DNA of 64,000 nt from Thioploca sp. (GTDB taxonomy: Bacteria > Pseudomonadota > Gammaproteobacteria > Beggiatoales > Beggiatoaceae): assembly GCA_012032555.1 (NCBI GenBank), contig JAAUSR010000013.1:1-64000 (forward strand), written 5' to 3'. Shown one piece after another: positions 29,401 through 43,049 of the stretch. The notes under the pieces were generated by a model. The model worked only from the letters and a program-made list of their open reading frames with translations, made no database searches and was not told the DNA's origin. A program made the translations under genes and the position numbers. Position 1 is the first letter of the stretch, and each line of letters opens with the position of its first letter.

Positions 29401-32400
29401 CTATAAAGTTGACTTTAGTTTTTCCTGTTGTAAAGCTTCAGTTAGATGCTGTGCTACTTGGGGAACTTGGTGTATGACTATTTGTGCCGCTTGTTCTAGA
29501 TCACCGGCGCGTCCAAGTGTTTCTAATTGCTTACAAAGATTAACCATGCTCATTGCGCCTAAATTTGAACAACTCCCCTTAAATTTGTGTGCCGCTAAAT
29601 ATAAGGTTTCCCCTTCATTAGTTTGAATAGCTTTATTTAATTCATTGATATAATTAGGTAATTCTCTTAAAAATAAATCAATTAACCAGTTAATACTACG
29701 ACCTTTCATGTCTTTGCGCATTTGTTCTAGTTTAGTCATAGAAAGTACTTCGTGGGTTTCTGGCATAGCGGTTAACTCCGGCGTATCAGGTGATTTTAAA
29801 TTACTTTCAGTAGATTGACTGGGATATGGTCCGCCAAAATAGCGACCTAACATTTTTTGTAAATTTTCTGATTTGACTGGTTTACTTAAATAATCATCCA
29901 TGCCCATAGCGATACACCGTTCCCGATCACCTTGCAATGCGTTGGCGGTTAAAGCAATAATCGGCAGGTGTGAATTACCAGTCTGCCAGAGTTCTTGTTG
30001 GCGAATCCGAATACTGGTTTCAAACCCATCTAAATTAGGCATATGACAATCCATAAAGATTAAATCATAACATTGTTGTGAGAGCGCTTGTAAAACTTGT
30101 TGCCCATCTTCCACCACGGTGACTTGACATCCTAAATTATGTAACATAACTTTGATAACCTCTTGATTAACTTTATTATCTTCCGCAAGGAGTATCTGTT
30201 TATTATTGAAATGAGTTGGAGTTGAAGAAGAGGATAGTGGTGGTAAAGTTACTGAATCAACTTTATCTTCACCCAAAATATAAAGTAAACATTTTAAGAA
30301 ATTAGAGGGTAACAACGGTTTATTCAAGATATATTTAATGGATTCTCGTTCTTGCTCTGCTATTTTATCCACAACGGTGAATAATACTAAGGGTAAATAG
30401 GCATACTGTAGATCGAACTGAATGGCCCGCATAAAATTCAAGCCATCTAATTGTGGAAAGTCATGTTCAATAATAACGATATCATATGTCCTATTCGCTT
30501 GCTGTAATAGTTGCAAGCCTTCGGTGGTAGTTGTAACAATATAAGCCTGTATTTCCCATTTCTGAGCGAGTGCCGTAAAAAGAATATGGTAGGCAGGATG
30601 ACTGATCACCAAGAGTAACTTTAGACCGCGCAATTTATGGACTGGTTCTACCAATGTAGTAATTGGAGTGGTTGATTTAGTGAAGGGTAAATTAAACCAA
30701 AAAGAACTCCCTTGACCCACTTGACTACTTAAGCCAATTTCCCCACCCATGATTTGTACCAAGCGACGTGAAATCGCTAAACCCAACCCGGTTCCACCAT
30801 AGCGACGGGTAGTTGAACTATCTGCTTGTAAAAACGGTTTAAATAAACGAGTCCCTTCGGCTTTACTCACCCCGATTCCAGTATCTGTTACTTCAAAATG
30901 TAAATTAAAATATTGATTTAATTCTTCAACCAGGGACACATGCAGTATAATCTCGCCTCGTTCGGTGAATTTAACCGCATTGCCGAGTAAATTATTGAGG
31001 ACTTGTCGTAACCGACTGGGATCACCGATTAATTTTACCGGTGGAAATGACGCTATTTGATAAATGAGTTCTAAACCTTTACGTTGAGTAGAGACCGTAA
31101 AGAGATTGATCACTTCTTCTAACAAAGCGGATAAGTCAAACTCAATTTGTTCCAAATTCAATTTATTGGCTTCAATCTTAGAAAAATCAAGAATATCATT
31201 AATTAAGGTCAGCAAAGCTTCACCAGAACTGCGTATCATTTCGACATAATGCTGTTGTTTAGCATCTAAAGGTGTTTGTTGTAGTAATTCGGTAGTCCCA
31301 ATAACACCGCTCATAGGGGTGCGGATTTCGTGACTCATCGTCGCCAAAAATTCACTTTTAGCTTGACTAGCCGATTCAGCGGCTTCTTTAGCTTGGCGCA
31401 AATCCGTTTCATAACGTTTCCGAATTGAAATATCACGAATAAAACTAAATAAAAATAGCGGCTGATTGATATCGTCTTCAAACTGAAAAGCCGTACTGGA
31501 GATTTCAACCTCGATTTGAGTTCCATATTTATGCCATAATTGAGTCTCAAGCCGATGGCTACCCGGTTTTATTAAATTTTGGATAGCTGCAGTCACTTCT
31601 GCTGGACTAAACTGCGCTCCAATCTGAGCGACTGGCATTCCGACTAATTCTTTTCGACTGTAACCGAGCATCTTACAAAAAGCTAGATTGACATCTTGAC
31701 AAATCCCCTCACTATTAAATAAACAAAATCCATCTATTGAGTTGGCTAATATCAAGTCATTGCGCAACATCTGTCGACGTAGATCTTGCTGGATTTGATA
31801 ATATTTAGTGATATCGACAGCGAGAATTAAAGCACCGATTAATTGATGAACATTTTCTCTTAATGGCGAGAAGGTGGTTTCAAAACAACGAGGAGAGTCA
31901 CTAAACTGCACGATTTGATTCAATCGTTCTTGACCGGCTAAGGCGGCTTGGACCGCACTGAGAAATTCAGGAAAGGCTTGATAAGTAGTAAAAATATTTT
32001 TGCCCACTAATTCATCTGGTCGCAAATCCAGTGTATTTAACCCCGTACCTCGGGAAAAAGTGAAAATCCCCTCGCAATTGATTACCCATAAAACCACCGG
32101 TAAATTATTGATAATCGTTTGTAATTGGGCTTCACTTTGGCGAAAAGCTCGTTCGAGCTGCCGCTGTTGTTTTTCGGTGCGTGCCGCCCAATGGGATAAT
32201 AGTAGCCCGGATGAGAAAAAAATAATGAAGATAACGATAGATTGATTCCAGAGCGCCCACTGATATTTTAGTAATAAGGATTTTTGTTGTAATCCCATAA
32301 CTTCCCAATGAGTATAATTGATAGGTAATCGATATAAAATCCGTTGCTGATCTTCAGGGTTGAGTTGATTATAGTTCTTGAGTGGTCGACCTTGGGCAGT

Positions 32401-33090
32401 TAACTCAATGCGATCTAACTCAGTTTGGCTCAGTAAAAGAATATCTTGTTGGTAAACTTGACCCGCTTGGAGAATAACCGTAATCATATCAGAAGGTAAG
32501 CCCAGTAAAAAAATACCACTAGTTCGATAACTTGAAGCAGATTGGGTTTTATTAGATGGCGAAGAGTTACCCCAAGGGATAATTAAATGAAAGTGTTGTT
32601 CGGAAAAATAACCAAGAACTTTGAAAGTTTGCTCCGGTTGAGTGGCAAAATCTTGTAATTGCATTTGGGTATAATTATCAATCTGTAACATACCTTGCCA
32701 AAATAGCGGGATGCCAGCTTGATTAGCAATAACGTAATCAAAATAGTTAGGGAAATAAGTAGAAACGCGTTGGCTAAATAGTTGGCGTAATTTTTCAGAA
32801 GTCGGTGATTGTGCTAAATCTTGGAGTAATTGCTCCTCTTGTTGAACTAATAGGGTAATTAATTGGCGATTTTTATTAATAAGATCAACAATTTGATTTG
32901 AAACAGCGTTAACTGAATTGGTAGCAATAGTTATTTGATACTGCTTAAAATCTTCTAAGCGTGCCTGTGTAATCCAAATCAATAAAACACCTAAACTCAC
33001 GGATGAAAATAAAAAAATAGCATAACTTTTGGAAAAAAAATTTTTCAGCATCATATTATAAAGATAGTATTTTAATAACCTATGTGTCAT
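29401..33090 (-). CDS. Hybrid sensor histidine kinase (PAS-HisKA-HATPase-REC-REC-Hpt)
   Basis: This 1,229-residue phosphorelay protein has an N-terminal membrane helix (AIFLFSSVSLGVLLIWI), a periplasmic sensor region to about residue 280, a second helix (IVIFIIFFSSGLLLSHW), and two PAS domains (about 320-560). The phospho-acceptor His is in FLATMSHEIRTPMSG near 583, with the ATP-binding G boxes in EVTDTGIGVSKAEG and RYGGTGLGLAISRRL. Two receiver domains follow: the first (about 830-945) is divergent, the second (about 968-1090) has Asp in DLIFMDCHMPNLDG near 1013. A C-terminal Hpt has its His in AAHKFKGSCSNLG near 1167. The architecture is BarA/ArcB-like. The signal and the final output regulator are not in the window. 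Confidence 0.93.
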   Translation of the reverse strand: MTHRLLKYYLYNMMLKNFFSKSYAIFLFSSVSLGVLLIWITQARLEDFKQYQITIATNSVNAVSNQIVDLINKNRQLITLLVQQEEQLLQDLAQSPTSEKLRQLFSQRVSTYFPNYFDYVIANQAGIPLFWQGMLQIDNYTQMQLQDFATQPEQTFKVLGYFSEQHFHLIIPWGNSSPSNKTQSASSYRTSGIFLLGLPSDMITVILQAGQVYQQDILLLSQTELDRIELTAQGRPLKNYNQLNPEDQQRILYRLPINYTHWEVMGLQQKSLLLKYQWALWNQSIVIFIIFFSSGLLLSHWAARTEKQQRQLERAFRQSEAQLQTIINNLPVVLWVINCEGIFTFSRGTGLNTLDLRPDELVGKNIFTTYQAFPEFLSAVQAALAGQERLNQIVQFSDSPRCFETTFSPLRENVHQLIGALILAVDITKYYQIQQDLRRQMLRNDLILANSIDGFCLFNSEGICQDVNLAFCKMLGYSRKELVGMPVAQIGAQFSPAEVTAAIQNLIKPGSHRLETQLWHKYGTQIEVEISSTAFQFEDDINQPLFLFSFIRDISIRKRYETDLRQAKEAAESASQAKSEFLATMSHEIRTPMSGVIGTTELLQQTPLDAKQQHYVEMIRSSGEALLTLINDILDFSKIEANKLNLEQIEFDLSALLEEVINLFTVSTQRKGLELIYQIASFPPVKLIGDPSRLRQVLNNLLGNAVKFTERGEIILHVSLVEELNQYFNLHFEVTDTGIGVSKAEGTRLFKPFLQADSSTTRRYGGTGLGLAISRRLVQIMGGEIGLSSQVGQGSSFWFNLPFTKSTTPITTLVEPVHKLRGLKLLLVISHPAYHILFTALAQKWEIQAYIVTTTTEGLQLLQQANRTYDIVIIEHDFPQLDGLNFMRAIQFDLQYAYLPLVLFTVVDKIAEQERESIKYILNKPLLPSNFLKCLLYILGEDKVDSVTLPPLSSSSTPTHFNNKQILLAEDNKVNQEVIKVMLHNLGCQVTVVEDGQQVLQALSQQCYDLIFMDCHMPNLDGFETSIRIRQQELWQTGNSHLPIIALTANALQGDRERCIAMGMDDYLSKPVKSENLQKMLGRYFGGPYPSQSTESNLKSPDTPELTAMPETHEVLSMTKLEQMRKDMKGRSINWLIDLFLRELPNYINELNKAIQTNEGETLYLAAHKFKGSCSNLGAMSMVNLCKQLETLGRAGDLEQAAQIVIHQVPQVAQHLTEALQQEKLKSTL

Positions 33091-33364: not shown

Positions 33365-34308
33365 TTATTTTTCAATAGGAGCAACCTGGATGACCGTAAA
33401 GGAAAGTGGTTCGCGTCCGGGAATTATCTTCATTTGTACTTCATAAGAAGTGACGCTACCATCAAAAATATTGGGTACATCAACTGCAGGCAGATATAAA
33501 CTGCCTTCAGTCAAAGAAAAGAAACCATGTACGAGTTGAGAATTAACTGGATTCGATGGTGAAGTGCACTGAGTCGTATCGATTCCACAAAAGTTGGGTT
33601 ATGTCGGCATTGAGCAATGGTTTCTTGAATAACTTGATTCAGATTAGGATCCACTTGAATACCACAAGAATTCGGATTTTTCTGACATTGTGCAATCCCT
33701 TCTTGCGTTGAACCATCGGTGTTATTATTCACAGTGATCCCACAACTGGTTGGATTAGTCAGACATTGAGTAATGCCATCTTGTTTGGACTCTATCTGAC
33801 AGGATTGTGGATCTTGACGACATTGTTCTATACCCGCTTGAGTAGAACCATCATCATTACCAACTATTTCACAACTGGTTGGATCAGCTTGGCATTTAGC
33901 GATACCTTGTTCAATCCCGGTTTGAATAAATTCATCTTTATCTGGATTAAGTTCAATATCACAAGTCGAGGGATCTTGACGACATTGCTCTATCCCGTCT
34001 TCAGTAGAGCCATCTGTGTTAGGACCGACTTTGATGCCACAAGAGGCTGGGAATTGTTTACATTGGTCTTTAATTTGTTGTTCCAAGTCGGGATTAGTGT
34101 CGTCCGAACTGAGGCTAATACCACACGCACGAGGCGTTTTACTACATAAATTCATGCCGTCTTTAAGACCGTCGTAGTATTCTTGAGAATGGTTAGTATC
34201 AGATGTCGTGGTGGAAGCTTGGGTAGTTTCTTCGCTGAAAACGGGAAAGTTAATAGTCCATAAAATAGTCACATAAAAGATTAAAACAATCGCATTTTTC
34301 ATAATCAA
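33365..34308 (-). CDS. Exported protein with Cys-x6-Cys repeats (apparent frameshift)
   Basis: A signal peptide (IVLIFYVTILWTINFPVFS) is followed by about eight repeats built on Cys-x6-Cys-[GDEQ]-Ile, for example CSKTPRACGI, CKQFPASCGI, CRQDPSTCDI and CQKNPNSCGI, most preceded by DGSTQxGIxQ. As given, the frame loses the pattern after CRHNPTF at 33591 and stops at 33511. Adding one base to the A4 run at 33588-33591 turns this into CRHNPTFCGI and extends the protein to a stop at 33365, with a well-formed tail (SLYLPAVDVPNIFDGSVTS). The paired cysteines probably form disulfides in the periplasm or outside. There is no heme motif (CxxCH). The family is not known to me. It lies 36 bp after cheB on the same strand. 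Confidence 0.72.
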
Positions 34309-34344: not shown

Positions 34345-35463
34345 TTATATTTTGGTCTCGTTAGATAAATTTTGGGTATGATTACTACATAAAGAGATTA
34401 GCTTGTCAGGAATTCTATTCAAGGGTAACACATAATCTATCCCACCTTGCTTAATGGCTTCACAGGGCATACCCCAAACAACGCTCGTCTGCTCGTCTTG
34501 TGCCACTGTCACCGCACCAGTATCGTGCATTTCCTTAATTCCACGCGCGCCATCGTCACCCATTCCGGTTAGAATTACACCAATCGAATTCGTACCTACA
34601 TTTTGGGCGATGGAGCGAAATAACACATCTACTGAAGGACGATGACGATTTACCGGATTACCTTGATGCAACCGAGTAATATAGCGTGAACCATCTCGTT
34701 CCACTAATAAATGATAACCACCAGGCGCAATATAAACATGACCAGGCAAGATAACTTTATTATCTTCTGCTTCTAATACAGTCATCGTAGAGAGTTGATT
34801 CATTCTTATTGCAAAAGAAGAACTAAAAGTGGCCGGAATATGTTGGCTAATCACAATACCAGGTGTATTGGCAGGCAAATGTGTCAACAATACCTTAATG
34901 GCTTCTGTACCGCCGGTAGAAGCGCCAATAGCAATAATTTTCTCAGTTGTTTTAAAATGACGCAATGGGGAGGGATTATGAGTTAAAATAACATCCGCTG
35001 AATATTTAGGAACAATTTTGAGAATCTTATTAGAGAGGACATTAAGCGGACGTACTTTTGCCCGAGCCGCAACTCGAATTTTACTAATAATTTCTTCAGA
35101 ATAAGATTCAAACGATTGGGCGATATCAATTTGCGGTTTAGAAATAAAATCAACTGCACCATATTCTAAAGCTTGAAGGGTAATATCAGCACCTCTTTGA
35201 GTGAGAGCGGATATCATTATCACCGGAGTTGGTCGTAAGCGCATTAAATTACTTAAAAAAGCTAATCCATCCATGCGAGGCATTTCTACATCTAATGTTA
35301 ACACATCGGGATTAAGACGTTTGATCTTTTCACGCGCAATATAGGGATCTGCAGCAGCGCCGACTACTTCAATATCAGATGCTGAATTTAATATCTTAGT
35401 CAACATTTGCCGAATTAAGGCAGAATCATCAATAATAAGTACTTTAATCTTAGACACGCCCAT
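34345..35463 (-). CDS. cheB: Chemotaxis protein-glutamate methylesterase/deamidase
   Basis: CheB removes methyl groups from chemoreceptors to reset adaptation. The 372-residue protein has the receiver domain ([15 protein letters not shown], phospho-acceptor Asp in [13 protein letters not shown] near residue 57, Lys in DFISKP) and the CheB esterase domain with the catalytic Ser in [13 protein letters not shown], His in [10 protein letters not shown], and Asp in [12 protein letters not shown]. It starts at an ATG. It is transcribed after cheD with a repeat-filled 79 bp gap between them. Confidence 0.95.
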
Positions 35464-35542: not shown

Positions 35543-36172
35543 TTAGAATAGATCGACATCACCAGCAAGCGGTTGTTTTTCCAAATTACGTTGATAAGCA
35601 TTTTCACGTACCAATACAGTTTGTTCCATTGAACGTAACTTTTTAACACGAACCCGTCCATTTACCGGATAGTAAAGTATTTTGCGTGGGTAAATATCAC
35701 CTAAGTCTTCTGCTAATAAAGTTAATCCTTCAGTTTGAATATAATTTTTCACAAATTCTATATTTTTTTGTCCAATATTAGCCATATTTTGCATAATACG
35801 TCCACCACCAAATAATTTTACCTCCAAATTGCGACGATTACCGCCATATTTTAAAATTTCATTAATCATATGTTCCATCGCAAAACTACCGTAGCGGCTG
35901 GCAACACTCACATTGGTATATTCCCATTTATTTTTGCAAGCAACATGGGTTGGTAACATAAAATGGTTCATGCCACCAATTCCATTAACACTGTCACGAA
36001 TACAAGCCGATATACAAGACCCAACCACCGTCGTTAAAATTTCATCATGGCGAGTCACATAGTATTCGCCAGGTAAGATTTTAGCGATATAGCCGGCATG
36101 GTGATGGTCCCAATAACGTTTTATCTGTTCATAACCAGGCAAAGCACGTGGTAGTGCAAGTGGTTGTATCAT
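35543..36172 (-). CDS. cheD: Chemoreceptor glutamine deamidase
   Basis: CheD deamidates glutamines on chemoreceptors and can interact with CheC-type phosphatases. The 209-residue protein shows the catalytic Cys in TTVVGSCISACIRD, His in GGMNHFMLP, and Thr/Ser context typical of the family, plus KLFGGGRIM and the NIGQKNIEFVKNYI segment. The N-terminal extension of about 40 residues before the core (YVTRHDEIL) is common in proteobacterial CheD. It lies between cheR and cheB. Confidence 0.93.
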   Translation of the reverse strand: MIQPLALPRALPGYEQIKRYWDHHHAGYIAKILPGEYYVTRHDEILTTVVGSCISACIRDSVNGIGGMNHFMLPTHVACKNKWEYTNVSVASRYGSFAMEHMINEILKYGGNRRNLEVKLFGGGRIMQNMANIGQKNIEFVKNYIQTEGLTLLAEDLGDIYPRKILYYPVNGRVRVKKLRSMEQTVLVRENAYQRNLEKQPLAGDVDLF

Positions 36173-36243: not shown

Positions 36244-37074
36244 CTAACCACATTTTATATAGACCGTTTGACGTAGTAATTGAAAACGGGTACTCAGTTG
36301 AAATAAATTTTCTGAATGTCCTATCAGCAAATAACCTTTATCATCAAGGATATTAGCAAAGCGTTCGAATAAAACTTTTTGAGTCGCCTTATCAAAATAA
36401 ATCACTACATTACGACAAAAAATAATATCAAATAGACCGCGCATCGGCCATCCATGCATTAAATTCAGCTGCTTAAACGTAATTAACGCTTGTAATTCTG
36501 GTACGACTTGGACTCGCCCAATTTGATTTCCAGTCCCTTTTTTGAACCAGCGACGTAACCGCAGCGGCGAAATCCCACTTACTCTTTCTTCTTCATAAAC
36601 ACCTTGTATTCCTCTGGCTAATACTGATGAGTCTAAATCTGTCGCTAAAATTTTAACATCCCAATGACTCGGTACCACTTCTCTAACCACCATCGCTATA
36701 GAATAAGGTTCTTCACCACTAGCGCAACCCGCAGACCAAATTCGCAATCGCTGAGTAGCTATTTGTTTTTCCATTAATTTCGGTAAGATGATTTGTTCTA
36801 ACAGCTCAAAGTGATGGGGTTCACGAAAGAAAGCTGTTAGGTTAGTTGTCACCGCATTCACAAAGTGAATTAACTCTTCACCCCCATCATTTTGCAATAA
36901 TTTATAATAATTAGAAAAACTTTTTAAATTTAAAGCCCTTAAGCGACGTGATAATCGGCTATAAAGCATTTCTTGCTTATGATCAGACAAGTTAATGCCC
37001 GTATGTTCACTAACAAGCTTGCGTAATAAATCAAAATCTTGTTTGGTGAAATCAAATTCTCGCTCGCTTATAAT
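36244..37074 (-). CDS. cheR: Chemotaxis protein methyltransferase, probable ATT start
   Basis: CheR methylates receptor glutamates with S-adenosylmethionine. The SAM-binding domain has RIWSAGCASGEEPYSIAM, VKILATDLDSSVLARG and IIFCRNVVIYFD. An open frame starting at TTG 36990 would lack most of the N-terminal domain. Reading further upstream in the same frame gives REFDFTKQDFDLLRKLVSEH, which is the expected CheR N-terminus, back to an in-frame TAG. No ATG, GTG or TTG lies there. The best candidate is ATT at 37074-37072, four bases after a GAGGAG ribosome-binding site, giving 276 residues, the usual CheR length. A substitution or sequence error that removed an ATG is the alternative. Confidence 0.88.
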   Translation of the reverse strand: MISEREFDFTKQDFDLLRKLVSEHTGINLSDHKQEMLYSRLSRRLRALNLKSFSNYYKLLQNDGGEELIHFVNAVTTNLTAFFREPHHFELLEQIILPKLMEKQIATQRLRIWSAGCASGEEPYSIAMVVREVVPSHWDVKILATDLDSSVLARGIQGVYEEERVSGISPLRLRRWFKKGTGNQIGRVQVVPELQALITFKQLNLMHGWPMRGLFDIIFCRNVVIYFDKATQKVLFERFANILDDKGYLLIGHSENLFQLSTRFQLLRQTVYIKCG

Positions 37075-37249: not shown

Positions 37250-37711
37250 TCAATGGTCTGGTTGCTTTCGGGTTACTTCTGGTGAGTATTCATAACGAGG
37301 TAGGCGCAGATGAGATGATAGACCTAGCAACTGAGCCGCTATACATAATTGTGGGGAAGGGTCAATCCAACCAACCGTTATTTGTGGATGATTGATAAAA
37401 GTGACCAATAATTGTAAAGCGGCTGTATCAATTCGTTCCACTTCTTTGCCAATTAATTGCACTCTTGAACCACAGTATTGTTGTAATTGTTGATGTAGCT
37501 CACTTAACTGTTCTAAAGTGACTATTGGCGGCAAATAGATTGTTTTCCACTTTACTTTTAAAAGCTGGGCTGATTCCAACGGCTGTGAGGAGCCATCTGT
37601 TGCAAAGTCATGCGTTTCCGAATGAGATTGCTGAAAATAAGATTCATTAAAATCATTTACTTGAACAGTATCCACCAAAGAAAGCGAAGTGTTGTCGTCA
37701 TCGGCATTCAT
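37250..37711 (-). CDS. STAS-domain protein of the chemotaxis cluster
   Basis: The 153-residue protein has an acidic, low-complexity N-terminal 45 residues and a C-terminal STAS domain (TIYLPPIVTLEQLSELHQQL, VERIDTAALQLLVTFI, QLLGLSSHLRLP). STAS proteins work in partner-switching or as scaffolds; the usual phospho-acceptor Ser is replaced in VERIDTAALQL, where Asp-Thr takes its place. STAS genes in chemotaxis operons are common in Thiotrichales and related bacteria, but the role is not established. It lies between a chemoreceptor gene (67 bp upstream) and cheR. Confidence 0.8.
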   Translation of the reverse strand: MNADDDNTSLSLVDTVQVNDFNESYFQQSHSETHDFATDGSSQPLESAQLLKVKWKTIYLPPIVTLEQLSELHQQLQQYCGSRVQLIGKEVERIDTAALQLLVTFINHPQITVGWIDPSPQLCIAAQLLGLSSHLRLPRYEYSPEVTRKQPDH

Positions 37712-37777: not shown

Positions 37778-40171
37778 TTAAAATTCTTCCCAACCCTGGT
37801 GATGAAGGGTATTTTTATGAGCAGATTTCAGGCTTGATTTGAGGTGAGGGTGGGATATTTGACTGATGTGAACTGGTGTCAACGGCTTCTTGCGAACTGC
37901 TGGCTGAACTGGAGCACTACTCGCTTTACCTAATTTAAAAAAGGTGACTTGTTGTTTGAGATTTTGCGCTTGGGTACTCATTGATTCACTGGCTGCAGCC
38001 GCTTCTTGAACTAAAGCCGCATTTTGTTGAGTCATTTCATCCATTTGCGTAACAGCTTTGTTAACTTGTTGAATACCAGAAGATTGTTCTTGGCTAGCGG
38101 CAGCAATTTCGGCAATAATATCACTGACTTTTTTAACGGCGGTCACGATTTCTTCTAAAGTTTCTCCGGATTGGTTAGCTAACTTGGTTCCTTCTTCAAC
38201 TTTGGCAACACTATCTTTAATTAAGTCTTTAATTTCTTTAGCAGCACTAGCACTGCGCTGAGCTAAGTTTCGTACTTCTGAAGCAACTACCGCAAAACCG
38301 CGTCCTTGTTCACCAGCACGAGCGGCTTCAACCGCAGCATTCAAGGCTAATAGGTTGGTTTGAAAGGCAATATCATCGATAACTCCAATGATATCGGTAA
38401 TTTTTTGACTACTCTTATTAATTTCCATAATCGCCTGAATAGCGGAATTGACCACGGCACCGCCTTTGAGAGCACGTTCTTTGGCTGTTGTTGCTAATTG
38501 CGTGGCTTGTTTAGCATTATCGGCGTTTTGCTGTACTGTACTGGTCATTTGTTCCATGCTGGCTGCGGTTTCTTCCAAAGAAGCGGCTTGTTGTTCCGTG
38601 CGTTGGCTAAGACTATTATTACCTTGCATAATTTCTCCCGCCGCGAGATTGACTTTATCCGCTGTTTGTTGAATTTCAGTCATAATTTCGATTAACCGTG
38701 ATACGGTTACATTTGCGTCGTTTTTCAGTTGCTCAAAAGCACCAGTATAGTCATTTTGAATCGTTTGGGTTAAGTCACCTTGCGCTAATGCTGCTAATAC
38801 GCGCATGATATCGTCGATCATTTTTTGAGTCACTACGGTGATTTTATTAATACTTTCACTAAAAGTATGGAAAAAGCCGGTTTTATTATCGAGATTAATG
38901 CGTTGTTTAAAATTGCCTTGAGAAGCCACCTGAACGACTTCATTAATTTCCTGTTCAGTTGCGACTTCTAGCGTGCGATTATTGAATTCAACTACTACAC
39001 CCAAACGTTCACCTTGATCGTTAATGACCGGGGTGATAATATGATCAAGAATAACCCCACCCAAGCTAACTCGGGTGCGATGGGCGTCGGTTAGCTTCGC
39101 TAATAATTGCCGTTGATAAGTTGGGTTTTTGTGAAAGAAATTGATATCGGCACCCACTAAATGTTCTGCATCAAAGTTAGGTAATTCAGTGCGAATTTTA
39201 CCTTGTTCTTCTCTAAACAACCGTTGTGCTGCTTCATTAAGATAAATAATGTGATATTCGCTATCGGTAATGAGAATATTAGTAGTAGCTTTATCTAAAG
39301 CACTGTTGATTCGTAGGGCACTATCGGCGATACGTTTGTCTTCCTCCATCCGTTCTTGTAATTGGTTTTGAGTATTGGTCAATTCTTCGATGCGTTCCCG
39401 TAATTGGCTTTGCATCTTATCTAGCGATTGTAATAATTTACCGATTTCGGTGTGATTATTGATTTCGATTTGATTATGCAAATTACCACTACTAATTTGA
39501 TCAGCAATCCCAATAGCCAAATTAATTCTTTGATTAATCAGCTTCGCTATTCCTAACACCAAAGCAATTCCAATTAACATGACCATAACGACCACCGTAA
39601 TGACCCAAATGAATATCACTTGTTTTTGCGCATTGCTATTATCTAAAAATTCACCAGCCTTATTACTCGCAAAATCGGTTAATTTTTTCATAGCCGCATC
39701 TAACTTATCATAATGCTGTGCCCCTTCCCCACTAACGATAGCGGTAACCGCTTGTTCTCGATTTCCCTGTTGGGCTAAACCCATTATTTTATCCCGAATG
39801 GCTTTCCACCGACTGAAAAGATTTTTTAAATCTTCGACATCTTGTTTATCGCCTAAAAACCGTTCATTGATAATGTCAAAGTAACTATAAACTTCTTTTT
39901 CATAAGCATTAATAGCCTGGCTGGATTTCTCTACTGTACCTGGTTCCGGATTGAGGGCAATGTCTCTCATCTGTTCACGAATTCTGAGAATATTAATATT
40001 GGCATCCCGTACTGCTTTGCTCACAGTCAATGGGTGGTTATACATCTTAATAGTGAATTCAGATAAATTTCGCATTTGCCACAAAGCGAAACTACCAATA
40101 ACCATCATAAAAATTATCATGAGTCCAAAACTCAGGTAGAGTAAAGTACTTATCTTCCTATTTTTAAACAT
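37778..40171 (-). CDS. Methyl-accepting chemotaxis protein with C-terminal CheR-docking pentapeptide
   Basis: I place the start at the ATG at 40171, preceded by AAGGAG six bases upstream; an upstream in-frame start at 40255 lacks a ribosome-binding site. The product has about 797 residues: membrane helix 1 ([19 protein letters not shown]), a four-helix-bundle periplasmic sensor, helix 2 ([19 protein letters not shown]), HAMP ([15 protein letters not shown]), a PAS-like segment ([12 protein letters not shown]), two more HAMP-like units ([31 protein letters not shown]), and the signalling hairpin tip [18 protein letters not shown]. The protein ends in GWEEF, matching the xWxxF pentapeptide that tethers CheR and CheB. 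It heads the STAS-cheR-cheD-cheB run. Confidence 0.93.
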
Positions 40172-40383
40172 GATTGACTCCTTGTGGTGGAATAACGTAA
40201 CTGATTCCTCTGTCTGAATCAGAATTTTCAGGATAGTAAAATTTACAGAATTCAATTGAAGCTAAATTATCCTATTCTGTCAATTTTTTAATTTGGAGAA
40301 TTTTGATTCAGACTATTAATGGGTAATAAATCACCTACACTAATACCCAAAACCCGCGTGAAATAAAGCCTAATTTGCTAAAT

Positions 40384-43049
40384 TCAAGCAATTTCCGTTC
40401 CCTCAAGTTTGAAAAATTTGACTTGTTGTTCCAGGTTAATCGCTTCGGTATACATCGATTCACTAGCTGCGGCAATCTCTTTGACTAAATGAGTATTTTG
40501 TTGGGTTATATCATCGATGTGAGCAATCGCTTGGTTAACATAATGAATACTTTTCGCTTGTTCCTGGTTTGCTGCTGCAATTTCATCCATAATATCATTT
40601 ACTATGATGACTGCCTTAACGATTTCGGTTAATTTTTTCATCGTACTATCAACTAATCGGGAACCTTCTTGGACTTTAGTCACACTACTTTTAACTAACC
40701 GTTCAATTTCTTGCGCAGAAACAGCTGTCCGTTGTGCTAATTGCCGAACTTCAGCAGCGACAACGGCAAAGCCACGTCCCTGTTTACCGGCATGAGCCGC
40801 TTCAATCGCAGCATTCAGCGATAGCAGATTCGTTTGAAAAGCAACTTCATTAATCAGGTTGATAATTTCAACCATTTTTCGGCTACTAGCATTGATTTCG
40901 TTCATCGCCATAACGACTGCACCAACCAGGGTTTCACCTTGTTTAACATATTCTTTCGCTTGACTAGCCAATTGAGTGGCTTGACTAGCATTATTGGCAT
41001 TTTGTTCTACTGTACTCGTCATCTGTTGCATACTAGCCGCAATTTCTTCTAACGCCGCTGCTTGTCCTTCAGTACGTTGTTTCAGATTAATATTATCTTG
41101 AGAAATTTCTTGCGTTGCGGTTCTAACAGCCAGAGCGGTTTGTTTAATAATGTCTATAATTGTAGTTAAGTGAAATACTGTAGCATTGGCATCTTGCTTA
41201 ATCTGCAGGAACATACCAGCATAATGATTCTCAATAGTTTTGGTTAAGTCACCTTGGGCTAAAGCGGTAAAAATGCGTAGCGTATCTTCACTCATCGCTT
41301 GGTTCAGTTGAATAATAGTATTAATACTGGCACTCATGGTTTGAAAAAAACCATTTTTGTTATCTAACTGAATAGATTGGTTAAAATCACCCTGTGAAGC
41401 CGCTTGAATAACTTGATCAATTTCTTGTGCCATTAAAATTTCTTGAGTACGATCATTGATTTCCATAACTAAACCTAAACGTTCCTGGTTAGCATTAATG
41501 ACCGGGGTGATAGCCAGATCAAACGTCAATTCACCTACTTCAAGAGTGGTATGGTAAGTATCGTTGAGTAATTTCAATAATACCTTAAATTGAGGTGTAG
41601 TTTGTTGAAGGAGATCAAATAAGACTTGTTCTAGTTGATCCATCTCAAAGTGTGATAATTGCTGACGAAAGTGACTTTCGGCTGCTGTAAAAAAATTTTT
41701 GCCGATTCATTAAGATAAATTAGTTGTTCATGCGGATTAGTGATCAAAATCGGTGTCGTCGTACGGTCCAATGCGCTATTAAGACGTAATGCTTTTTGAG
41801 TAATCTGCTGTTCTTTTTTAAAGCGTTCCAGTAACTGTTTTTGCATTTGAGCTAAGGCGGTTAATAATTGACCAATTTCATCCTGGGTATCGATTTCAAT
41901 GGGATTATCCAACTGCCCAGTAGCAACATTTTTGGCAATATGAATAATTTGATTAAATTTTCTGCTCATACTGGCTAAGAGGAGATAAATAAATAAGGCC
42001 AGTAAAATAAGCAGGATAAACATACTAACCACTGTCAAAGTAAAATTAGCGTTAGCTTGGTAACGAATTTGACGTGAGCGCGTGGTTAATTGTTCAGCTA
42101 GCTGTTTTTCAATTTGATTAAGCCAATTAATTTTAGCGACTTGTTTTTCAAGCCAGTTTTGAAGTTGAAGGTCGATAAACTGGCTATTATTGTTCAGGTT
42201 AGCGGCGATATGCCGCAGGTATTGGGCGTCTTCAGAGAAAACGGTGGTCGTTGGAAATTCAAACTGGTCTGGTGGTTTTAGAGTTGCTAATAAATCGTTA
42301 ATTATTTGCCAATATAATTGTTGTTGGGCAACTAATTCAATAATTTGGTAAAATTGAATAGCAGTAATCACTTGTTGAGCCATTACCTGGTTCAATTGAC
42401 AATCTTCTAGACTAGCTATTTCTTGAGTAGCTAAAAAAAAAGTATAAATGAGTTTTAGCTTCAAGATATTTTCATTGGTATTCAAAGTCATTATTCGATG
42501 TACCAACTTAATCAGAACACGATTGATTTGAGAATACACTTTAATGACTTGATCATTATTTTGAGTGTTGAAGGTTTCGCGTTGTGCTGCTAAATTATTA
42601 AAAATGGTTTCTACTTGGTCAAATTCGGTTTTAAATGAACGAATTAATTTTTCTTCCTCAAAACCTTTAAAAAAAATATCTAAGGTAAAATGAATCCAAT
42701 CATTGGCATGATTACTATCAAAATTATCTGCTTTAAAATGTTTTAACAAATAATTAAATTCATAAATGGCTTGATCAGTTTCTATCCATTGTTGTTGTAA
42801 TTTATCACGGCGTTGGTTATGACCGGATTGCGATAAATTCAAGCTAAGCCGACGTTCATGTTGAAGTTGATGAATTACATTAATTCCTTGAATGACAAAA
42901 GGCATTATTTCTTCTAGATGATTCATTTCTAACACAATGCTAGCTTTGTCTTTGATGTTAACAAAAGTAAAATAAAATAAAGCCACAATGGGCAATAACA
43001 ACATTAAATAAAGTCGATACTTTATTTTTAATTGATTGAACCATTTCAT
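40384..43049 (-). CDS. Methyl-accepting chemotaxis protein (apparent frameshift)
   Basis: Adding one base to the A7 run at 41689-41695 merges two frames into a receptor of about 888 residues; the rejoined sequence then aligns segment by segment with the neighbouring receptor ([19 protein letters not shown] against its PAS-like part). The N-terminal half has membrane helix 1 ([17 protein letters not shown]), a periplasmic region of the nitrate/nitrite-sensor type size, helix 2 ([19 protein letters not shown]) and HAMP ([18 protein letters not shown]). The C-terminal half has HAMP-like units and the signalling tip [18 protein letters not shown]. It ends in [11 protein letters not shown], with no CheR pentapeptide. 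Without the repair, the C-terminal half would be a soluble receptor fragment. Confidence 0.85.

Follow-up and report, generated by a model that had tools for sequence, protein, structure and literature searches.

Directly behind cheB in a chemosensory operon of Thioploca sp. lies a gene for a protein, predicted to be exported, in which eight regularly spaced cysteine units are followed by a beta domain of about 53 residues at the C-terminus. The gene is found on the minus strand (34302-33365) of the window, i.e. the whole stretch of 64,000 nucleotides that was analysed. By profile comparison, the unit and the beta domain are separable modules that are common in the Beggiatoaceae and, in the samples searched, almost confined to them. 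The explanation we tentatively prefer, while giving it somewhat less than an even chance, is that the protein would be a spacer of the envelope or cell surface, built like beads on a string and combined with an attachment module, and would form part of the chemosensory operon. To our knowledge, chemotaxis operons mostly encode cytoplasmic and membrane parts, and it is unusual for one of them to include a conserved repeat protein that is exported.

The reading of the gene starts at ATG 34302, with TTG 34308 as an alternative, and the signal peptide, MKNAIVLIFYVTILWTINFPVFSEE, is followed by a spacer and then by the units. These follow the pattern G-x3-C-x2-[DN]-P-x-S-C-G-I, seven of them being complete in one frame and the eighth being completed past a frame change (Table 1). 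In detail, unit 8 begins in the first frame (CRHNPTF) and its second cysteine belongs to the other frame; the first open frame itself runs on to 33511 in a meaningless tail, and the second reads CGID...PIEK up to its stop codon at 33365-33367. The orthologue in G040, the only other genome of the window's genus among the genomes searched (the window genome being G000), reads through all eight units to the C-terminus in a single frame of 320 residues from stop to stop. The frames and this intact copy confirm the original prediction that the eighth unit appears only after the run of four A has been repaired, and the predicted export is in line with the signal peptide.

Table 1. Features of the unit gene and of the surrounding chemosensory cluster in the window
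Feature	Position	Strand	Evidence and remarks
Hybrid histidine kinase with receiver and Hpt domains at its end	29401..33090	-	Pfam; downstream of the unit gene
Second frame of the unit gene	33365..33589	-	Remainder of unit 8, then linker, beta domain at the C-terminus and stop codon
C-terminal beta domain	33374..33532	-	About 53 residues, four predicted strands; profile match 4.5e-18
A4 run, site of the frame change	33588..33591	-	Intact single-frame copy in the same-genus genome G040
First frame of the unit gene	33592..34302	-	Signal peptide (about residues 1-23), Cys units 1-7, first half of unit 8
cheB	34345..35463	-	Pfam CheB_methylest and Response_reg; directly upstream of the unit gene
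cheD	35543..36172	-	Pfam CheD
cheR	36244..36990	-	Pfam CheR
STAS-like protein	37250..37711	-	Pfam STAS_2 2.1e-4, under the curated cut-off
Methyl-accepting chemotaxis protein with periplasmic four-helix sensor	37778..40255	-	Pfam 4HB_MCP_1, HAMP, MCPsignal
Second chemoreceptor with NIT sensor, two frames	40384..43049	-	Pfam NIT, HAMP, MCPsignal in two open frames

Codon comparison with G040 indicates that both halves of the gene, including the part past the frame change, are under purifying selection. The first frame shows 89.5% identity over 237 codons with a dN/dS of 0.095, and the second 98.6% identity over 74 codons with 13 synonymous changes and one non-synonymous change (dN/dS 0.02); for cheB the same two genomes give a dN/dS of 0.061. 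Because the ratio is low on both sides, either selection maintained the protein up to the very recent past or the break is a sequencing error, and long-term decay of the gene is rejected. In these sequences, a genuine frameshift of very recent date and a sequencing error would look alike at the A4 run.

The regularity of the units is far above what composition would give. The first frame contains seven C-x3-P-x2-C motifs and seven C-x6-C motifs, as against a mean of 0.05 (maximum 2) and of 0.86 (maximum 6), respectively, when the same residues are shuffled 20,000 times. The original prediction of about eight regular cysteine units in one protein was therefore correct, the eighth lying across the frame change, and so was its description of the pattern, in which the second cysteine is followed by G, D, E or Q and then by I. 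The fetched loci yielded 210 distinct units in 54 open reading frames, with G-[IKR]-x-x-C-x-x-[DN]-P-x-S-C-G-I as their consensus; the search pattern itself had fixed or restricted C, P, C and the two positions that follow the second C. Of these units, 161 have G at position -4, 170 have D or N at +3 and 167 have S at +6. Units most often follow one another at a spacing of 26 residues, as in 74 of the 159 intervals listed.

Among 31 proteins, in which units were defined by spacing and true units were told from accidental matches by eye, both cysteines are present in 185 units, neither in four and a single one in another four. All four units without cysteine belong to one protein and have V and Y in its place. 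By this count the unit cysteines come and go as pairs, as is required of a disulfide-stapled repeat. For 14 relatives the cysteine content amounts to five to eight pairs plus 0-5 other cysteines, with 0-5 histidines per protein; the CxxCH haem motif is absent from all 14, which excludes a multihaem c-type cytochrome and agrees with the earlier remark that there is no haem motif. At another locus (L038, 5515-5988, minus strand) a small exported protein, for which Pfam has no family, contains three C-x2-[DN]-P-x2-C motifs with charged helical surroundings.

The linkers are far less constant than the units. NTDGSTxE is the linker of the che-linked type, and QAQLDAAAQTAR or AKEEGVKQGKQ takes its place in other unit proteins; the overall linker consensus is N-T-D-G-S-T, with N in 74, D in 98 and G in 74 of the 210 units. 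This consensus might point to metal or calcium binding, with ions held by the cysteine pairs or by the N-x-D-G-S-T linkers, yet we find this hardly credible, as the linker is swapped for quite different sequences while the cysteine unit stays, histidines are few, and the loop end bears no acidic residue. Of the EF-hand-like pattern (D-x-[DN]-x-[DN]-G with an acidic position 12) the N-x-D-G part is common among the 210 units and the acidic position 12 is not. Calcium loops as a general feature were rejected because of the differing linkers.

Profile searches of Pfam, NCBIfam and PDB gave only sub-threshold matches for the unit protein. One of the 14 relatives matches YHYH_alt (1.6e-6) and one FliH (0.0012), both of which were taken as local. 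The STI1/HOP DP domain (STI1-HOP_DP, PF17830) was rejected with 22.5 bits against a gathering threshold of 29.1, and the single relative out of 14 that matched it was also under the cut-off; the weak likeness lies in a DP-containing helical stretch, and the domain lacks the cysteine logic of the unit. The portions of the literature covered here, including PMC6390638, PMC11172852, PMC4914600, PMC5728499 and PMC5108060 and mostly excluding subscription papers, contain no account of the present unit array and none of an exported protein linked to cheB. The unit protein is thus absent from the libraries and papers searched, just as the original prediction had not recognised the family; the profile search it had proposed recovered the repeat in relatives and matched no known repeat family of these libraries above threshold.

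Structure prediction, likewise proposed at the outset, was of divided value. For the full-length protein AlphaFold2 reached a mean pLDDT of 43.6, with a helix of about ten residues per unit and often a short helix of four, and this model was kept out of the fold searches. Because of the poor full-length prediction, the bead geometry is drawn from secondary structure only. The beta domain alone (12 sequences) was predicted with good confidence, at a mean pLDDT of 77.4 and with block means of 86-92 for residues 21-70, as a domain of four strands with the consensus G-x-L-x-[IL]-P-x-[VI]-x-V...Y-x-V-x-[LM]...F. Its search against PDB gave a best Foldseek E-value of 0.7 and a best VIA-align Z of 4.4, so that neither program found a significant fold counterpart there. 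This domain is a second, independently used module, which had been missed when the protein was described as built from repeats; the repeats themselves stand.

Among 83 distinct open reading frames with the beta domain in the fetched loci, 69 have it at most 16 residues from the C-terminus. The other 14, in which more than 16 residues follow the domain, have it internally or directly behind the signal peptide, which rules out a strict C-terminal sorting signal. One of these (L138) has a unit, the beta domain and then a molybdate-binding protein domain; L137 is a further example of a beta domain that is not C-terminal, and in L159 and L129 it stands ahead of what we read as an amidohydrolase-like sequence. 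The 83 frames come from loci picked by score or by unit, and the 41 of them that also contain units are therefore not to be read as a frequency. At L169 (1026-2999) no stop codon separates the frame of a YoeB-like toxin from that of a propeller protein with two beta domains; these are probably two genes sharing an open frame.

The unit profile matches in 32 of the 42 Beggiatoaceae genomes, which also constitute the order sample, and the beta domain was found in 40 of the 42. Across the class sample, 3 of 274 genomes have the unit, all three being Beggiatoaceae, and the same three have the beta domain. Four of 398 genomes in the phylum sample match the unit profile, namely the window genome, two genomes with credible short unit-plus-beta proteins (L113 and L114) and one with an unconfirmed match (L115). 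A phage or plasmid origin was rejected, as a tblastn search with a 105-residue array of L012 gave no match.

Most unit-bearing proteins are unrelated to che genes. Pfam families in 44 of the 83 beta-domain frames, counted among 25 of the 37 families matched, include laminin-G (6), PKD (4), endonuclease I (3) and Peptidase_C13 (2), besides propellers, peptidyl-arginine deiminase, solute-binding protein, HAD and GDPD, and NCBIfam (25 of 38 families) adds the choice-of-anchor C family; units likewise occur in nuclease, lectin-like and propeller proteins. By its predicted domains, the window protein is the form that has units and beta domain and no passenger. At three of three loci (L031, L032 and L026) passenger-free unit arrays lie directly behind a gene for a DUF4384 lipoprotein-like protein.

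Such passengers, in particular laminin-G, PKD and the choice-of-anchor C family, together with the position of the beta domain at one end of most carriers (C-terminal in the 69, directly behind the signal peptide in several others), would fit a secreted adhesin or a slime or sheath component, in which the beta domain would be a carbohydrate-binding or sorting module carried outward by the array and its display would be under chemosensory control. We regard this as distinctly unlikely, as the fold searches lend the domain no known counterpart, its binding is putative, and its N-terminal or internal position in the 14 frames is unlike a strict C-terminal sorting signal.

The evidence for a tie to the chemosensory pathway comes from gene order. 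In the window, cheB ends 36 bases upstream of the unit gene, and behind the latter follows a hybrid kinase, the Hpt part of which matches the separate Hpt genes that come after the orthologues in L041, L046 and L048 (tblastn, 55-59%). The window contig carries no cheA, which lies on other contigs of the genome; two cheA-domain matches on contig C20 are also in two frames. Several chemotaxis genes of the window draft look frame-shifted, and the NIT chemoreceptor, for instance, is one frame of 860 residues in G040.

Our search of the 42 Beggiatoaceae genomes gave 26 with a cheB orthologue of at least 70% identity. Testable were the 23 loci with more than 500 bases downstream of cheB, which leaves out G029, G034 and G028. 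The unit gene is the next one after cheB on the same strand in nine of the 23, spread over six genera (G000, G040, G030, G031, G016, G020, G032, G033 and G022), and relatives of the window protein are carried by metagenome-assembled genomes or drafts of Thioploca, Parabeggiatoa, Halobeggiatoa and Thiomargarita. Both genes of G029, cheB and the unit gene, are located where a contig ends, which is consistent with linkage and was not counted. Nor was L055 (G014), where a gene of another type, with one unit and the beta domain, is convergent to cheB. On the CheB tree the presence of the unit gene clusters, with four changes as against a mean of 7.7 in shuffled data and none of 500 shuffles as low; this number of changes may even be too high, because G029 and G034, which have only 165 and 199 bases of contig left behind cheB, were scored as lacking the gene.

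The genes that follow are shared as well. An Hpt or receiver signalling gene lies directly behind the unit gene in seven of the nine loci, counting the kinase fusion of G000 and G040, the other five (G030, G031, G032, G033 and G022) having Hpt, receiver or both there. In G031 a CheC-like gene comes after the receiver; G020 has receiver and CheC genes about 5.6 kb away on the opposite strand, and near the unit gene of G016 no Hpt, receiver or CheC gene was seen. Within flanks of 510 bases to 1.5 kb at most, none of the 14 cheB loci without the unit gene contains an orthologue of the Hpt or receiver genes.

The original prediction had left it undecided whether the position behind cheB was chance or a link to sensing. 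As judged from these loci, it is not chance, and the gene is kept next to cheB in part of the Beggiatoaceae; a role in sensing is what we infer from this. It does not always stand next to chemotaxis genes, being absent there from 14 of the 23 loci and, in the four genomes of genus g7 with an orthologue, lying among unrelated genes away from che. These absences and relocations, and the many relatives unrelated to chemotaxis, could mean that the protein is a mere operon passenger, that is, a structural protein of the envelope or a secreted one that uses the che promoter and takes no part in sensing. We consider this possible though doubtful. The position has been kept over six genera despite the fast divergence of the protein itself (30-50% identity, as against about 70-80% for CheB), and it is shared with the signalling genes behind it.

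A further question is how the cysteines would be used. Neither DsbB nor VKOR was detected in the window genome or in G040; DsbB occurs in 7 and VKOR in 5 of the 42 genomes, and of the 32 unit-bearing genomes eight have one or the other and 24 have neither detected. The usual disulfide-making route, in which one of the two would re-oxidise the oxidant, is thus not evident, and this speaks against a disulfide in the units. In addition, a paralogue away from che adjoins a thiol-redox gene in both loci seen. In L049 (4260-9463) it is preceded on the same strand by a ResA-like thioredoxin and by three ATPases of the T2SSE type, which by eye resemble PilT/PilU. In L091 (8840-10204) the gene immediately after the orthologous paralogue encodes a glutaredoxin-like domain (sub-threshold) fused to a membrane protein that by eye resembles CcdA/DsbD.

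The scarcity of DsbB and VKOR and these neighbours make a redox reading worth a test. The cysteine pairs would then be reversible thiol/disulfide (or persulfide) switches, and periplasmic sulfide or oxygen would set the number of closed beads and thereby the length of the chain or its contact with a chemoreceptor, placing the filaments in the oxygen-sulfide gradient. The hosts are sulfide oxidisers, the gene lies in a chemosensory operon, and the proteins have few cysteines outside the pairs. However, the thiol-redox neighbours belong to the paralogue and not to the che-linked gene, and some Beggiatoaceae genomes without units lack DsbB and VKOR as well. The redox reading is further weakened because the unit is used in many proteins without a sensing role, such as those nuclease, lectin-like and propeller proteins, where it would be a structural part; taken together, we think it unlikely. 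Improbable in our judgement is also a wider version, according to which the Beggiatoaceae would own a toolkit for outer proteins, with the C-x6-C bead and the end-of-chain beta module placed on dozens of unrelated exported proteins in the manner of Bacteroidota secretion tags, and the bare cheB-linked form would be a periplasmic redox ruler for the chemosensory pathway of the gliding filament, its cysteine pairs answering to sulfide or oxygen without DsbB or VKOR.

According to the spacer-and-attachment reading that we prefer, the protein would be an exported soluble chain, each unit of which would be a helix ending in C-x2-[DN]-P-x2-C-G-I, with the cysteine pair closing a tiny staple. Five to eight such beads would be joined by polar linkers, the array setting the reach of the chain, and the four-stranded beta domain at its end may attach to or recognise some component of the envelope or sheath. 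Since it has no other domain, the cheB-linked form would be the free-standing version of the modules that these bacteria otherwise put on many exported enzymes and binding proteins. The gene stays in a cheR-cheD-cheB-(Hpt)-(receiver)-(CheC) operon, and for this reason the protein probably serves the chemosensory pathway outside the inner membrane, where it could act only on the periplasmic domains of the receptors or at the surface. It may thus be a periplasmic or surface partner of the receptors or a surface component of the gliding behaviour controlled by the pathway. This action on the outer side is the best-supported reading, its last step, like the disulfide in the units, the cellular location, the attachment and the partnership with receptors, being one that we infer.

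For the surface sensing or action of gliding giant sulfur bacteria, no genes are named in the parts of the papers that were examined, and the cheB-linked protein offers a handle on it. Neither module has a name in Pfam or NCBIfam; naming both would annotate many exported proteins of the Beggiatoaceae at once, and genomes full of exported cysteine pairs without DsbB or VKOR pose a directly testable question.

Gene content and order around the unit gene are those of cheR-cheD-cheB clusters with a CheC-type phosphatase; in contrast to standard clusters of this kind, an exported repeat protein follows cheB, and the window contig is without cheA. The T9SS CTD and PEP-CTERM are C-terminal sorting modules, which the beta domain resembles as a short conserved end domain on unrelated exported proteins, including those with choice-of-anchor C and a Porphyromonas-type deiminase domain. 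Unlike them, it also occurs at N-terminal or internal positions, shows no transmembrane segment or basic tail by eye and has no known machinery. Finally, EGF-like and thrombospondin type 3 repeats are short, cysteine-bearing tandem repeats of exported proteins that contain extracellular disulfides. The unit array resembles them in that short cysteine repeats serve as spacers between or before other domains, and it differs from them in having one C-x6-C pair around a conserved [DN]-P in a unit that is predicted to be helical.
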